Shown here one piece after another: positions 6,313 to 56,826 of a stretch of 64,000 bases of DNA; the stretch's first letter is position 1; every line of letters begins with the position of its first letter. The position numbers and the translations under genes are program-made. The stretch lies in NCBI GenBank assembly GCA_016208315.1, contig JACQYF010000005.1, positions 1 to 64,000 of the forward strand, read 5' to 3'. Source of the stretch: Chloroflexota bacterium. GTDB lineage: Bacteria > Chloroflexota > Anaerolineae > UBA4142. The notes beneath the pieces were generated by a model that did not search any database, had not been told where the DNA came from, and saw only the letters and a program-made list of their open reading frames with translations.

Positions 6313-6329
6313 GGAGGACTTTCTAGGGA

Positions 6330-6402
6330 TTGGAGATTGGAGATTGGAGATTGGAATGAGCGTACTCTAATCTCTAATCTCCAATCTCTAATTTCCAAAA
6401 CC
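6330..6402. repeat. Heptamer phrase repeat (GGATTGGAGATTGGAGATTGG / AATCTCCAATCTC inverted arms)
   Basis: Tandem AGATTGG on one side and AATCTCC on the other, forming a long imperfect inverted repeat. Confidence 0.8.
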
Positions 6403-31991: not shown

Positions 31992-32050
31992 ATTTTACGT
32001 TTTACGCATTACGCTTTACGGGCTAAAACGTAAAACGTGAAACGTAAAGG
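31992..32050. repeat. Heptamer phrase repeat (TTTTACG / CGTAAAA)
   Basis: ttttacgttttacgcattacgctttacgggctaaaacgtaaaacgtgaaacgtaaa, inverted arms between pheS and pheT. Confidence 0.85.
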
Positions 32051-32058
32051 AGCGCACT

Positions 32059-34653
32059 ATGAGACTACCCTTAAGCTGGTTGCGCGATTACGTTGACATC
32101 ACCATTCCGCCCGAAGAGGTGGCGGAGAAGCTGACGCTGGCGGGTCTCGAAGTCGAGCAGATGGAATATGTTGGTATTCCGCGTCCGGAAGGATTACGAA
32201 TGGGACGCGGCGAGCGCCCCGAATTGGCGTGGGACCCGACGCGCGTTTTCGTCGGCCATATTCTCGAGGTCAAGCCGCATCCCAATGCCGACCGCTTGAC
32301 GCTCGCGATTGTGGATTACGGGCGCAGCGCGCCGATTCAGGTCGTGACCGGCGCGCCCAACCTCAAGGTCGGCGATAGCGGGCAAAAGGTCGCGTTCGGC
32401 GTCGAGGGCGCGCGGCTGTTCGATGGGCACGAAGCGGGCTGGAAGCCGATGACGCTAAAGAAAGGCAAGATTCGCGGCATCGAGTCCGGCTCGATGGTGC
32501 TATCGGAAAAAGAACTGGGCATCAGCGAGGACCACGAGGGCATCATCATCCTGCCCGACGACGCGCCCATCGGCGAGCCACTCGTCGAGTATCTGGGCGA
32601 TATTGTGTTCGAGGTCAAGATCAATCCGAACATGGCGCGCTGCGCGTCCGTCCTCGGCGTCGCGCGCGAGGTCGCCGCAATTACCAATTCCCAATTACAC
32701 CCTCCCTCGCTCGACGTAGTAGCGCAAGGCGCCTCAATTAAGGGCCAAGTGGACATCCTCATCCAAGAGCCGCGCCTCAATCCGCGCTTTACGGCCGCGC
32801 TCCTGCGCGATACCGAGATCAAGCCGTCGCCTTTTCTGATGCAGCATCGCCTGAAACTGGCGGGCATGCGCCCGATCAACAACATCGTGGACGTGACGAA
32901 CTATGTCATGCTCGAAGTCGGCCAGCCGCTCCACGCGTTCGACTACGACAAACTCTACGCGCGCGCCGGCCATCGCCCGCCGACGATCATCACGCGCTTG
33001 GCCGAACCCGGCGAAGAACTCGAAACGCTCGACGGCTTGAAACGCAAGCTCGATCCGTTCACGATTCTCGTTTGCGACACGCGCGGTTCGCTTTCGATTG
33101 GCGGCGTGATGGGCGGCGCGGAATCCGAAGTGGACGCGAACTCGAAGAACATCCTGCTCGAAGCCGCGGCGTGGGATTACATCAACATTCGCCGGACGAT
33201 GGCCGCGCAGCATCTCGCGTCCGAAGCGGGCTACCGCTTCAGCCGCGGCGTCGCGCCGTCGCAGGCCATAGTCGGGCTGAAATGCGCGATCGAACTGATG
33301 CGCCAGGTCGGCGGCGGCGAGATCGCGCGCGGCGTGATTGACACTTATCCGGGCAAGCCGAAAAAGATCGTGATCAACCTGCCCATTGCGGAGGTCAAAC
33401 GCCAACTCGGCGTCGAGATTGCGCCGAAGCAGATTACCAAGATTCTGGAGAGTCTCGATTTTCAAGTTAAAAGTCAAAAGTCAAAAGTTAAAAGTAAATC
33501 GTCTAATCTCCAATCTCCAATCTCCAATCTCCAAATCACTGTCCCTGACTATCGGCTCGACGTGGACGGCGCCGACGACCTGATCGAAGAAATCGCGCGG
33601 CTGTACGGATATGCCAACATTCCGATTTCCCGCATGAACGACGAATTGCCGCCTCAGTGGACGAACGTGGACCTCGAACAGGAAGAGCAGGTGCGCGATG
33701 TGCTGGTCAACGCTGGATTGCAGGAAGTGATCTCGTACGCGCTGACGACGCCGGAACGCGAGGCGCTATTAGGTGCGACGCACTTGCCAAGTGCGTCGCA
33801 CGTGAGGATCGGAAACCCGATCAGCCCGGAACGCACGGTAATGCGGCAGACGCTCCTCGCCAACCTGCTCGACCTCGCCGCGGCGAATCTACGCTACCAG
33901 ACGCGCGTTGCCCTCTTCGAAGTAGGGAATGTCTATCGGAGACGGAGCGCGGACGAGCCATTGCTGCCGCGCGAACTCGCGACCGCACTCCCGGAAGACA
34001 AGGAACTGCCGGTCGAGCGTCGCCGTCTCAGCATCGTCCTGACGGGGCCCGGCGGGACAATTTCGTGGACCAAGACCGATACTGCGCTGATGGATTTCTT
34101 CGATCTCAAGGGCGTGCTGGAAGAATTGCTCGAAGGACTCCATCTCTCCGGCGCGAGCTTCGTCGCGGCCGAGAATGCGCTGTATCACCCGGGCCGGGCG
34201 GCCGCGCTGGTCCTCGATTCGCAAGAAATTGGCGTGTTCGGCGAACTGCACCCGCTGCTGCGCGAGAAATTCGATCTGCCCGCCCAGCCCGTGCTCCTCG
34301 GCGAGTTCGATCTCGACGCGCTGCTCGCGCCGGTTTCGCCGCTGTTCGCGACGCGCGCGCTCTCGCGCTATCCGGTCGTCACGCAAGACCTTGCCATCAT
34401 CGTAGACGAGAACGTGGACGCGGACCGCGTTTATGCGCTGATTCGGCAGACGGGCGGCGAGTTGCTCCAGCGCGCGGCGCTGTTCGACCTCTATCGCGGC
34501 GAGCCGATTCCCGCCGGGAAAAAATCGCTGGCGTACACGCTCACGTTTCAGGCGATGGACCGCACCTTGTCCGAGCAAGACGCGACCAAGATCCGCGACA
34601 AAATCGTCAACCGGCTGCGACACGAACTAGGGGCCGAATTACGGGGAGTGTAG
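32059..34653 (+). CDS. pheT: Phenylalanyl-tRNA synthetase beta subunit
   Basis: MRLPLSWLRDYVDITIPPEEVAEKLTLAGLEVE...DVTNYVMLEVGQPLHAFDYDKL...C-terminal anticodon-binding RYPVVTQDLAIIVDENV. Confidence 0.95.
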   Translation: MRLPLSWLRDYVDITIPPEEVAEKLTLAGLEVEQMEYVGIPRPEGLRMGRGERPELAWDPTRVFVGHILEVKPHPNADRLTLAIVDYGRSAPIQVVTGAPNLKVGDSGQKVAFGVEGARLFDGHEAGWKPMTLKKGKIRGIESGSMVLSEKELGISEDHEGIIILPDDAPIGEPLVEYLGDIVFEVKINPNMARCASVLGVAREVAAITNSQLHPPSLDVVAQGASIKGQVDILIQEPRLNPRFTAALLRDTEIKPSPFLMQHRLKLAGMRPINNIVDVTNYVMLEVGQPLHAFDYDKLYARAGHRPPTIITRLAEPGEELETLDGLKRKLDPFTILVCDTRGSLSIGGVMGGAESEVDANSKNILLEAAAWDYINIRRTMAAQHLASEAGYRFSRGVAPSQAIVGLKCAIELMRQVGGGEIARGVIDTYPGKPKKIVINLPIAEVKRQLGVEIAPKQITKILESLDFQVKSQKSKVKSKSSNLQSPISNLQITVPDYRLDVDGADDLIEEIARLYGYANIPISRMNDELPPQWTNVDLEQEEQVRDVLVNAGLQEVISYALTTPEREALLGATHLPSASHVRIGNPISPERTVMRQTLLANLLDLAAANLRYQTRVALFEVGNVYRRRSADEPLLPRELATALPEDKELPVERRRLSIVLTGPGGTISWTKTDTALMDFFDLKGVLEELLEGLHLSGASFVAAENALYHPGRAAALVLDSQEIGVFGELHPLLREKFDLPAQPVLLGEFDLDALLAPVSPLFATRALSRYPVVTQDLAIIVDENVDADRVYALIRQTGGELLQRAALFDLYRGEPIPAGKKSLAYTLTFQAMDRTLSEQDATKIRDKIVNRLRHELGAELRGV
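33463..33537. repeat. Two joined heptamer phrase repeats inside pheT
   Basis: AAAAGTC-AAAAGTC-AAAAGTT-AAAAGTA then AATCTCC x4; encodes KSQKSKVKSKSSNLQSPISNLQ. Confidence 0.9.
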
Positions 34654-40726: not shown

Positions 40727-42988
40727 CTACATCTCCCTCAACGTAAACGACTGCGCGCCCTGCGCCGGCAGCGTTTCCACGAGCCGCCGCTCTTGCGCGA
40801 GCGCGGCCAGCACGCCGATGCTGTCGCCCCATTCGATGCCCAAATCCTGCCGATTGAGCGCGATCTCTATCACGCGATTGCGGACCGTTGCGCGCGCGCC
40901 GAATGACGCAGCCCGCCAAATTTCCTGCCCCTCCGCGCGATAAACCCGCGCCTCGGCTTGCCCCGGCTCGACCGCGATTTCCCATTTGAGCGCCAGCCGC
41001 GCGTCCGATTCGCTATCGCGCGGGCGCGCGTTGAAGCGTTCGCCGCGCGGGGTGGACAGGTAAAGCGCGACGCGGAATGGCGCGATGTCCACGCGGGTCT
41101 CGACGCGGAAAACCAAGTCGTCGGCGTTGTAGCCGTAAAAGACGCGGGCGAGTTTCGTCTCGGCGTGCTGCATCGTGCCCGTGCTCGCGTTCGGCTCGAC
41201 GATGCCCGCGCCGTTCCACTCGTCGCCCGCGGTTTCGGCCCCCGCTAACTGCCGCGTGACGAGCGCGCGGATGCCCCGCTCGCGGGTCTCGACGATGGCT
41301 TTACGGATCGGTTCTTTGAGTTCGTCGGGGACCGGCAGGCCGATAATCGCGTAGACGCTTTGCAAGTGGCCGCGGAAAAGCTCGTCGAACATTTCGTTCT
41401 GAGTCGAGTTATTGTGGGTCGAATACCACCAGAACCAATCGCTCCCTTCCGCGATGTACAATTCGTCCCACGCTCGCGCGATCACGTCCTCGTGCGCGAG
41501 CGCGTAATCCCGTTGCCAGAGCGCGAGCTGCTCCCGCGTCTGCGCGAGCAGTTCCCAGGCGCGATTCTGCGCGGGTTCGCCGATCCACGTATCGAAATTG
41601 CCGTTGATCCAACTGCCGGCCGCGAGCCGCTTGATCGTTGCGCGCGGCGGATTGGCGCGCAGATATTCGCCCATCGTGACCGTTCGTAGCGCCGGATCGT
41701 TTGAGAGGGCCTGGTAGAGTTCACGGAAAAAAGGATCGCCGTTATCTTCGTACCATTCCCACGCGTTTTCGCCGTCCAGAATGATCGAGACGAGGTAGCC
41801 GCGTTCGACATCGGCGATGCGCTCGCGAATCCGGTGCAGCCGGTGAAGGAGTTCCTGCGCGGCGTCGTGCGCCGACATGTGCTGATACCCAAAGCCGATG
41901 CGGTCGGAGAGCACGTGGTCGCGGAACACCAGTCGCAAGTCCCCGGTCTCAGGTCGCAAGTCCTCGGTCCGACGGCTCGCGTCTCTTTTGTGGCGACTTG
42001 CGGCTTGTGACTTGGGACCTGCGACTTGCGACCTGTGACTTGCGACTTGGTAGGGCTGATACAGCACGCGCGGATTCGTGACGTTCCCCTCGTGGTCGCG
42101 AGTGATCGCCTTGCCGAGCGAACGCGCGAGAATGTCCTCGTCCGACGCGAGCCAACGGAATTGGCCGCCGATCAGCGTGAGCAATTCTGCGCCCACCGAC
42201 CCTTCGGAGGGCCACAGACCCTGAGGCGCGGCGCCAAAGTAATTGCGATGAGCGTTTACGGCCCGGCGAAGTTGTTCGGCGGCGTCTTCGGGGTGCGCGA
42301 ATGCGACGGCGGGCAGCGCGATATTGGGGATGGCTTCGCGCGCCAAGCGCTGGTCAATCAACAAGGGCAGGATCGGATGATAGTACGGCGAGGTCGAAAG
42401 CTCGATTTGGCCGCGCGCGGCGAGTTCGCGGTGCAGCGGAATGACGCGCCCCGCCAGCTCGCGATGCTTGGCGAGAATGGCCGCGACGTCGGCGCGCGAG
42501 AACTCGTGGTCCTTGGCGACGAGGGCGCGGAGCGTCTCATCGCGCGAAATCGCGCGCGGGTCTATCCACGCGAGGTTGAACCAGGCCGCGAGGTCGAGAA
42601 AATATTGCTCGGACACGTAGCGGCTGTCGCTCTGTTCGCGCAGGCGGATGTAGCCGGGATAGCGTTCGAGCAGGCGCGGGTTGATCGAAAAAAAGTGGTC
42701 GAGCAGGAATTGTTTGTCTTCGGCCGTCCAGTTTTCTTTGAGACTGAGCGCCTGCCAGTCGTCCGTGTATCGGCCCGCGCCGATTCCCGCGAGTTGTTCG
42801 ACGAGTGACGGCACAAAGTTGAACGTGCAGTGAATCGCCGGAAAATCCGCGACCAGTTCGGCCATGTGCAAATAATCTTTGGCCGCGTGCAGCCGCGCCC
42901 ACGGCAGGCAGGCCACGCCGCTGCCCGGATCGCGATAGTCCGGTTGATGTTGGTGCCAGACAAAGGCAACGTACAGTGGATGTGACAT
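40727..42988 (-). CDS. Glycoside hydrolase family 57 protein
   Basis: MSHPLYVAFVWHQHQPDYRDPGSG...PWARLHAAKDYLHMAELVADFP...GLWPSEGSVG...ILDGENAWEWYEDNGDPFFRELY. Confidence 0.9.
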   Translation of the reverse strand: MSHPLYVAFVWHQHQPDYRDPGSGVACLPWARLHAAKDYLHMAELVADFPAIHCTFNFVPSLVEQLAGIGAGRYTDDWQALSLKENWTAEDKQFLLDHFFSINPRLLERYPGYIRLREQSDSRYVSEQYFLDLAAWFNLAWIDPRAISRDETLRALVAKDHEFSRADVAAILAKHRELAGRVIPLHRELAARGQIELSTSPYYHPILPLLIDQRLAREAIPNIALPAVAFAHPEDAAEQLRRAVNAHRNYFGAAPQGLWPSEGSVGAELLTLIGGQFRWLASDEDILARSLGKAITRDHEGNVTNPRVLYQPYQVASHRSQVAGPKSQAASRHKRDASRRTEDLRPETGDLRLVFRDHVLSDRIGFGYQHMSAHDAAQELLHRLHRIRERIADVERGYLVSIILDGENAWEWYEDNGDPFFRELYQALSNDPALRTVTMGEYLRANPPRATIKRLAAGSWINGNFDTWIGEPAQNRAWELLAQTREQLALWQRDYALAHEDVIARAWDELYIAEGSDWFWWYSTHNNSTQNEMFDELFRGHLQSVYAIIGLPVPDELKEPIRKAIVETRERGIRALVTRQLAGAETAGDEWNGAGIVEPNASTGTMQHAETKLARVFYGYNADDLVFRVETRVDIAPFRVALYLSTPRGERFNARPRDSESDARLALKWEIAVEPGQAEARVYRAEGQEIWRAASFGARATVRNRVIEIALNRQDLGIEWGDSIGVLAALAQERRLVETLPAQGAQSFTLREM
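41929..42048. repeat. Phrase repeat (GTCGCAAGTC / GACTTGCGACCTG) inside the GH57 coding sequence
   Basis: gtcgcaagtccccggtctcaggtcgcaagtcc...cgacttgcggcttgtgacttgggacctgcgacttgcgacctgtgacttgcgacttgg. Confidence 0.9.
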
Positions 42989-55200: not shown

Positions 55201-56826
55201 GGATTCGTAATCGCGAGAAGACGCGAGCCGGGGAGCGCGGCAAGCCGGTCGTTGACGCGATCCCAGGAGATGCGGGCGCGCAAATCGCGTTGGCTGACGC
55301 CCGCGTATTTGCCGGAGAGCATTTCGAGAACGGACGCGAAAGAAGCGCGCGAAAGGTCGCGAAAGGAATAGGTTTGGTGGACGAGATTGTAGAGCGCGGG
55401 CACGGCCCAATCCTCGACCGCGACCATGGCGACGATTTGCTGCGCGAGCACGTCGAGCGGGTTTTGCGGCGTGTACGTCGGCTCGACATCGCCTTCGAGC
55501 ATGCCGCGCGCAATGGCCGCGGCCTCGACCAAGTCCTCGCGAAACGTCGCGTAGATGTGCCCGATGCTCGTTTGCCCGACCAAGTGGCCGGAGCGCCCGA
55601 TGCGCTGCAATCCTTGCGCGACGCTCTTGGGCGATTGAAGCTGCACGACCAAATCCACCGCGCCAGTGTCAATCCCGAGTTCGAGCGAGCTGGTACCGAC
55701 GAGCGCGGGGAGCTTGCCGGCTTTCAACTCTTCTTCCATCTTGCGCCGCGCTTCCTTCGACATCGAGCCGTGGTGCGCGCGAATCGGCCCTTCCGCGCCA
55801 ATCGCAAAGATGCCGCGGTCACGCGGGACGCCGCCCGGCGCGAGCGCGGGACTGCCCGGCGCGATCTCTTCGGACTGCTCCGCGGCGAGTTGCGCGTTCA
55901 GCCGGTCGGCGGTGCGTTCCGCGAGGCGGCGATTGTTCGCAAAGATCAACGTGCTGCGATGCTCGCGAATATCCTGGAGGACGCGCGGGATAACGTAGGG
56001 CCAAATCGTGTTGCCGGGCAGGTTGCGAAAATCGTCCACGACTGTCACGACTTTAAGATCGAGTGGCTTGTGATAAGTGGCATTGACTATCGTAACATTG
56101 CGGTGGTTGGGTGGTTGGGTGGTTAGGTGGTTAGTGTGTTGACTGTTTACTGTAAACTGTTGACTGTTGACTGGCTCCTGGCCTCCGAGAAACCGCGCCA
56201 CCTCGTCCAGCGGCTTGATGGTCGCAGAGAGGCCGATGCGTTGGATGCGTTGCGCTGCGAGGTGCTCTAATCGTTCCAGACTGAGCGAGAGATGGACGCC
56301 GCGTTTGTTGCCGGAGAGTGTGTGAATCTCGTCCACGATAACCGTGCGGACCGTGCGAAAGATTTCGCGCGCCTTGGGACTGGTGAGCATGAGATAGAGC
56401 GATTCGGGCGTGGTGATGAGAATGTGCGGCGGCTTTTTCAACATCGCGGCGCGCGCGTGGCTGGGCGTATCGCCCGTGCGGACGGCGACGCGCAGTTCGG
56501 GCAGCTCGTCGCCCATGCGTGCCGCAACCTCGCGGATCCCTTCGAGCGGCACGCGCAGGTTGCGTTCGATGTCGTTGTTCAACGCTTTTAGTGGGGAGAT
56601 GTATAGGAGTTGAGTGTGGGAGTGTGGGCGCATCGCGATAGAGTTGGTCAATGCCCCAGAGGAACGCGGCGAGCGTTTTGCCCGAACCGGTGGGCGCGAG
56701 GATCAGCGTGTGGTCGCCGCGCTGAATCGGCAGCCAGCCCTGCGCTTGCGGCGGCGTCGGCTCACCGAAAGTTTCGCGAAACCAGGTACGCACGGGCGCG
56801 GAGAAATGGTCGAGTGGAGTGGACAT
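52242..56826 (-). CDS. lhr: Lhr-type DEAD/DEAH large helicase, split by a frameshift near 56610-56632
   Basis: N-term frame MSTPLDHFSAPVRTWFRETFGEPTPPQAQGWLPIQRGDHTLILAPTGSGKTLAAFLWGIDQLYRDA, then a different frame QLLYISPLKALNNDIERNLRVPL...VIVDEIHTLSGNKRGVHLSLSLERL...GTSSLELGIDTGAVDLVVQLQSPKSVAQGLQRIGRSGH. Confidence 0.85.
53570..53600. repeat. GGGGCGATCCCTTGTGGTCGCCC palindrome inside lhr
   Basis: gtaggggcgatcccttgtggtcgccctc; encodes EGDHKGSPL. Confidence 0.8.
53741..53838. repeat. Long C-rich/G-rich hairpin inside lhr
   Basis: ctacctcacccccctccccctcgctccccctcccccctctcctgaacc-tgaacttc-ggttcaggagaggggggagggggaaggggggtaggaggtgag. Confidence 0.9.
54881..54913. repeat. 33-bp palindrome inside lhr
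   Basis: aaacccgaagggtctc-c-gagaccctttgggttt, one mismatch; 11 codons long. Confidence 0.8.
56101..56173. repeat. Two joined phrase repeats inside lhr (GGTGGTTG octamers and ACTGTTG heptamers)
   Basis: cggtggttgggtggttgggtggttaggtggttag + tgtgttgactgtttactgtaaactgttgactgttgactgg. Confidence 0.9.

Follow-up and report, generated by a model that had tools for sequence, protein, structure and literature searches.

A loop in the B5 domain of PheT, the beta subunit of phenylalanyl-tRNA synthetase, was found to be filled with 7-nt tandem repeats in all 10 readable genomes of one family of Anaerolineae, always in frame and with the sequence wholly changed even between congeners. Essential genes are normally considered no place for repeats whose unit length is not divisible by three. 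The sites of these repeat islands are inherited, both between genes and in conserved proteins, where they occupy loops or linkers. Among relatives, position and reading frame are kept but the word at a site changes, the words being drawn mostly from a limited vocabulary that varies from genome to genome. Inheritance of a site is separable from inheritance of its sequence, and spread and overwriting of short bacterial repeats become directly testable. With a probability of roughly 0.55, we propose that hepta- and octamer islands are inherited and that their words are rewritten by within-genome copying plus slippage, being tolerated in PheT in an exposed loop.

The PheT repeat block and the same loop in relatives

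The window, a stretch of 64,000 nt, belongs to a draft genome of 6.26 Mb, whose nearest named relatives by PheT are Chloroflexota of the class Anaerolineae. The following features were used (positions in the window):

32059..34653, + strand: pheT, phenylalanyl-tRNA synthetase beta subunit, 864 aa, host of the block (ORF, Pfam and E. coli PheT match)
33373..33612, + strand: B5 domain of PheT, aa 439-518, holding the block (Pfam PF03484, AlphaFold fragment model)
33464..33495, + strand: left array, AAAAGTC-type 7-nt repeat, 4.6 copies, two exact (TRF, sequence)
33496..33504, + strand: junction between left and right arrays, 9 nt (sequence)
33505..33534, + strand: right array, AATCTCC 7-nt repeat, 4.3 exact copies (TRF, 100% matches)
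31993..32045, no strand: heptamer hairpin TTTTACG.../TAAAACG... in the pheS-pheT spacer, same island class
6328..6392, no strand: intergenic heptamer hairpin GATTGGA.../TCTAATC..., word family of the right PheT array

The pheT gene is complete, with the Pfam domains tRNA_bind, B3_4, B5, tRNA_synthFbeta and FDX-ACB all above cut-off and an E-value of 1e-115 to E. coli PheT (3pco_B). The sequence at about 33463-33537 reads CAAGTTA AAAGTCA AAAGTCA AAAGTTA AAAGTAA ATCGTCT AATCTCC AATCTCC AATCTCC AATCTCC AAATCAC within an uninterrupted 864-aa ORF, and its translation, VKSQKSKVKSKSSNLQSPISNLQ, lies inside the B5 domain. The in-frame double 7-nt array between SLDFQ and ITVPDYRLD, as given in the preliminary description, was confirmed by sequence, ORF and TRF. 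The four AATCTCC units reported there were recovered as well, whereas two of the AAAAGTC units proved exact and two did not (92% matches over 4.6 copies in TRF), these being AAAAGTT and AAAAGTA. The two arrays had further been described as joined head to tail; nine nucleotides lie between them. The frame does stay open despite the 7-nt units, but this says less than it seems to: for 69% of all heptamers, a tandem array contains no stop codon in any of the three frames.

Compared to E. coli PheT the block segment is about 14 residues longer. In an AlphaFold model of aa 425-530, with E. coli PheRS as top structural match, the block formed a low-confidence loop with strands (E45-50 and E64-70) on either side, which would place it in a B5-domain loop that is exposed and probably disordered. 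No RNA structure was detected for the window block (z +0.64), which is also not palindromic. An RNA hairpin function was rejected for it, as it does not fold. An assembly or sequencing artefact is very unlikely as the source of the block, as 10 separate genomes agree. A third, short heptamer array (CAATTAC x3) was observed in pheT at 32678-32698, where relatives have the same length without the repeat.

Individual genomes (labelled G0xx) were compared from the family of the window genome, termed f1, and from its sister family, termed f2. Period-7 sequence was present in the PheT loop of 10 out of 10 f1 genomes readable there, in differing words and always in frame, and was degenerate in G004. 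The following words were found:

G008: AAAACGT + CCAATCT
G001: AAAGT-type + CTTACCA
G012: CAAAATT + CACGCAA
G006: GACCGAC/ATCGGTC
G013: GACCGCC/GTCAGCG
G011: a related pair
G009: CAAGTCC + CACTCGT-like array
G007: CAGTCAA only

The PheT insertion is not an isolated event, as the same loop is filled in all ten f1 genomes and arrays are often joined or paired. An equivalent segment in ordinary PheT proteins had been named beforehand as evidence against an insertion. Such a segment exists in the f1 relatives, built from other words, whereas in most PheT outside f1 the loop is about 13-14 residues shorter than that of the window. The f2 proteins have a short loop with no repeats there. In scattered other Anaerolineae, arrays arose at the same PheT loop. 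An independent ESSNIASPN-repeat expansion was observed in Anaerolineales bacterium isolate Bin_53R (L177), a member of another family, with a PheT B5 loop of about 70 residues.

The PheT arrays of G006 and G013 are inverted pairs and fold strongly (z -2.7 and -4.5, respectively). In PheT of this hairpin form, the left arm was seen to complement the right arm imperfectly at places where an exact complement would give TGA, in a reading by eye without statistics. A single in-frame TAA was found in the draft genome G013 about 315 codons beyond the PheT array (L008), the gene being otherwise intact; it is a sequencing error or a lesion unconnected with the array.

A genome-wide class of 7- and 8-nt arrays

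In a sample of 716 kb of the window genome, period-7 arrays were found at 92 and period-8 arrays at 50 per Mb, above all other periods; after a dinucleotide shuffle of the same 716 kb neither kind was left, with zero period-7 arrays at the threshold used. Extrapolated from this sample, the PheT block is one among hundreds of period-7/8 arrays in the genome. Four f1 relatives contained 23-138 period-7 arrays per Mb and one f2 genome 25 per Mb; two genomes of other families had no period-7 arrays in 100 kb each. The 96 period-7 arrays of the sample fell into 37 word classes versus about 90 expected from random seeds taken from intergenic 7-mers, and a single word, AAAACGT, occurred 14 times. Neighbouring arrays were inverted copies of one word in 34 of 53 cases (at most 1 mismatch) versus direct copies in 1 of 53. 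Both arms of a hairpin have the words in common, but not the order of the unit variants, and arm-to-arm templating was rejected with a unit order match of 0.911 versus 0.904 for shuffled units. Unit variants inside single arrays resemble slippage plus mutation. By our reading, islands of the same word have no common flanks, loop or element sequence.

A total of 113 islands were counted in the 716 kb, 38 of them within ORFs of at least 150 aa. As only about one third of the islands lie in such ORFs, although 89% of the sequence is coding, the islands avoid genes without sparing them. Of 59 genic words, 53 were stop-free in the coding orientation and 36 on both strands, the latter versus 20 of 74 intergenic words (p 1e-4). 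In the window, a further array was observed inside an ORF at 41993-42049, and an 8-mer array and a 7-mer array lie head to tail at 56102-56173 within a 1469-aa ORF.

Word exchange at fixed sites

The congeners G012 and G006 were compared over 192 kb and 400 kb plus four genes, with most sites located on one contig pair. Their PheT proteins are 92% identical when the insert is left out, and their nucleotide flanks are 85-90% identical. Identity falls only over the arrays and returns at once, which was seen for PheT, MutL, MutS2, the DAO/GCV_T fusion protein and the pheS-pheT spacer. By our count, 11 of 13 orthologous sites carry arrays in both genomes; of the remaining two, the first is an empty site in G012, and at the second G006 has an unrelated palindrome. 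Different words were found at 8 of the 11 co-occupied sites, the same or a related word at 3. The arms of a hairpin change word jointly between the two genomes, as for an intergenic hairpin TCAGTCT/CTGAATA that corresponds to a hairpin AAGGATG/TTCATCC in the congener. The pheS-pheT spacer contains other iterated-phrase hairpins in G012 and G006, again replaced between the two.

The vocabulary was followed at other loci. In 17 of 20 comparisons a site word was commoner in the genome of its site, with the opposite in 3 (two-sided sign test about 0.003 by our calculation; the two arms of a site are not independent). Scans of whole genomes yielded 14 occurrences of AACACGC in G012 versus 5 in 19 others; for GCGGTCA the numbers were 50 in G006, 20 in G013 and 2 in the others. 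Both words hardly occur outside the genomes that have them in PheT and one congener. Three exact copies of AATCTCC were found 21 times in the window genome (overlapping matches counted) and 26 times in G008. The word is common in several further genomes and occurs in 28 of 199 genomes across the class, patchily and in bursts. The left word AAAAGTC was found nowhere else in the window genome in that form, and an own-genome origin was not supported for it. CAAGTCC, the PheT word of G009, is rare everywhere.

Arrays with varying words at fixed positions were also found in MutL (two sites), MutS2 and DAO/GCV_T of most f1 members, for DAO/GCV_T in f2 as well. Every fully anchored insert in these three proteins is a multiple of 3 nt; the DAO/GCV_T fragment of G010 (L228) has an incomplete left anchor and was excluded from this count. 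Including PheT, no frameshifted allele was detected among all fully anchored alleles at the five genic sites. A frameshift switch or phase-variable contingency locus was rejected, no off allele being found at the fully anchored sites of the relatives. In-frame palindromes of other kinds (CATTGCGAG...CTCGCAATGAC; GTAGGGGCGAAGCATGCTTCGCCCCTAC) were observed at L238 and L241 (MutS2) and L225 (DAO/GCV_T), where relatives have heptamer arrays. In the sampled part of the window genome, mismatch-repair-family genes with in-frame heptamer or octamer arrays were MutL (L064:14715-16520), MutS (L050:7465-10074) and MutS2 (L040:12600-15038); MutS2 of G008 (L081:11870-14359) was listed with them. Three array-bearing repair genes do not demonstrate an enrichment, because arrays are in general more frequent in long ORFs (found in 8 of 40 that measure 700-1000 aa).

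Explanations for the arrays and related systems

In the explanation that we prefer, the word at an island would be copied from other islands of the same genome, through conversion between dispersed short repeats or template switching among them, and replication slippage would follow; point mutation of the old array would not be the source. PheT would tolerate the island owing to its place in the exposed, probably disordered B5 loop. Frameshifts and words with stop codons would be purged by selection, words yielding basic loops maybe favoured, and the repeat may have no function for the cell. No direct copying event was seen in the relatives compared, nor was an enzyme identified for rewriting. 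Several observations stand against rewriting: AAAAGTC is private to the PheT locus, so that local slippage suffices for the left half, AATCTCC abounds in a number of further genomes too, and 3 of the 20 word comparisons point the opposite way. We consider it unlikely that an active process overwrites the words of fixed islands, both arms at once, from a genome-specific vocabulary, preserving site and frame while the sequence is replaced, so that conserved enzymes obtain renewable disordered loops. Copying plus slippage fits best, with slippage alone and transposition into hot spots as the main rivals.

Under plain slipped-strand expansion, with no copying between loci, each array would grow locally from a chance seed, mutate, be re-homogenised by slippage and persist because loops of 7-8 nt are too large for mismatch repair. 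Among bacterial repeats of 5-11 nt heptamers are the commonest, and their abundance has been put down to slippage in published work (PMC4679880, PMC4692102). The private left word of PheT and the unit variants within arrays agree with it. The 37 word classes instead of about 90 from random seeds, the joint switch of both hairpin arms between congeners and a genome-specific vocabulary, in which words are not independent per locus, argue against slippage on its own, which we regard as possible and rather doubtful. Mobile palindromic elements (MITE- or RPE-like) could alternatively transpose into hot spots, with tolerant loops being filled, lost and refilled. The unrelated palindromes that replace arrays at MutS2 and DAO/GCV_T sites in some relatives point in this direction, and conserved Rickettsia genes with palindromes in frame provide a precedent (PMC2229807). 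However, same-word islands lack common flanks and loop sequence, no element ends or duplications were seen (duplications are not resolvable at 80-90% flank identity), a single one of the 13 sites is empty in the G012/G006 pair, and the window PheT block is not palindromic. Such transposition appears improbable.

A selected function as regulator-binding site, RNA structure, frameshift switch or basic nucleic-acid-binding PheT loop is the most doubtful of these proposals and in our judgement quite improbable. In its favour, the paired hepta- and octanucleotide sites of Geobacter were interpreted as global regulator sites (PMC2700814). The net charge of the PheT loop is +4 to +7 in 9 of 10 f1 species with differing words, compared to 1 of 31 other genic arrays of at least 12 aa that reach +4 or higher. 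The charge of the basic loop may be under selection. This is suggestive only, since the PheT arrays read in the other frames are almost equally basic (0.150 per residue versus 0.211 in the actual frame) and the ten f1 species are related and not independent. Given the basic character of the other frames, charge selection via choice of the reading frame was judged weak. Further points against a function are the different words at the same site in congeners, the unstructured window block and the in-frame state of every fully anchored allele at the five genic sites.

Geobacter metallireducens offers the closest architecture, with multicopy paired hepta/octanucleotide elements between and within genes, four to five tandem 7-/8-mers per site, opposite-strand pairs and tens of copies; a sister species has a different repeat in the proBA spacer (PMC2700814). 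The arrays described here likewise have three to five tandem units of 7 or 8 nt per site and are multicopy, intergenic and genic (113 islands, 38 in ORFs). Opposite-strand pairing was found genome-wide (34 of 53); in PheT, G006 and G013 show it and the window copy does not. In contrast to the few word families in Geobacter, for which binding of a global regulator was proposed (PMC2700814), dozens of words occur here, at fixed sites, changing across the family and with long-term in-frame residence in essential genes, pheT among them. Rickettsia palindromic elements are also tolerated in frame in conserved genes and between genes (PMC2229807), comparable to PheT, MutL, MutS2 and DAO/GCV_T. However, they measure 105-146 bp with a conserved family sequence (PMC2229807), whereas here the unit is a 7-mer, site sequence is not conserved, nothing beyond 7-mer words is shared and the window copy is unfolded; a conserved stem-loop family of 105-146 bp was not found.

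STRR/heptanucleotide repeats of cyanobacteria, Xanthomonas (GGGAATC) and Beggiatoaceae (TAACTGA) are dispersed tandem heptamers with few words per genome, mainly intergenic and sometimes in inverted pairs (PMC4692102, PMC4679880). They involve one or a few words, mostly between genes, in contrast to the word exchange at fixed coding sites found here. Compared with slippage microsatellites (LSSR/STRR), the tandem short units are well above chance here as well; an independent origin of the word at each locus was not observed (37 versus about 90 classes). Nematomorph mitochondrial coding palindromes are inverted repeats in genes at positions common to species, with concerted arm change, but their perfect arms encode conserved residues (PMC6649704), whereas the arms here are heptamers that match by word only and lie in variable loops. 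Archaeal Borg tandem repeats evolve fast and create disordered protein segments, yet are direct and sit on archaeal extrachromosomal elements (PMC9879509), while ours are 7-nt repeats of a bacterial chromosome, often in inverted pairs. A literature search covering few subscription journals found no description of such repeats or behaviour in Chloroflexota. The paired hepta/octamer architecture and in-frame repeats were known already; the word exchange at fixed coding sites sets the present case apart, and a rewriting mechanism is inferred for it. Odd inserts in these proteins, such as NWKLEVG or SNLQSPISNLQ, are repeat DNA and not functional motifs.
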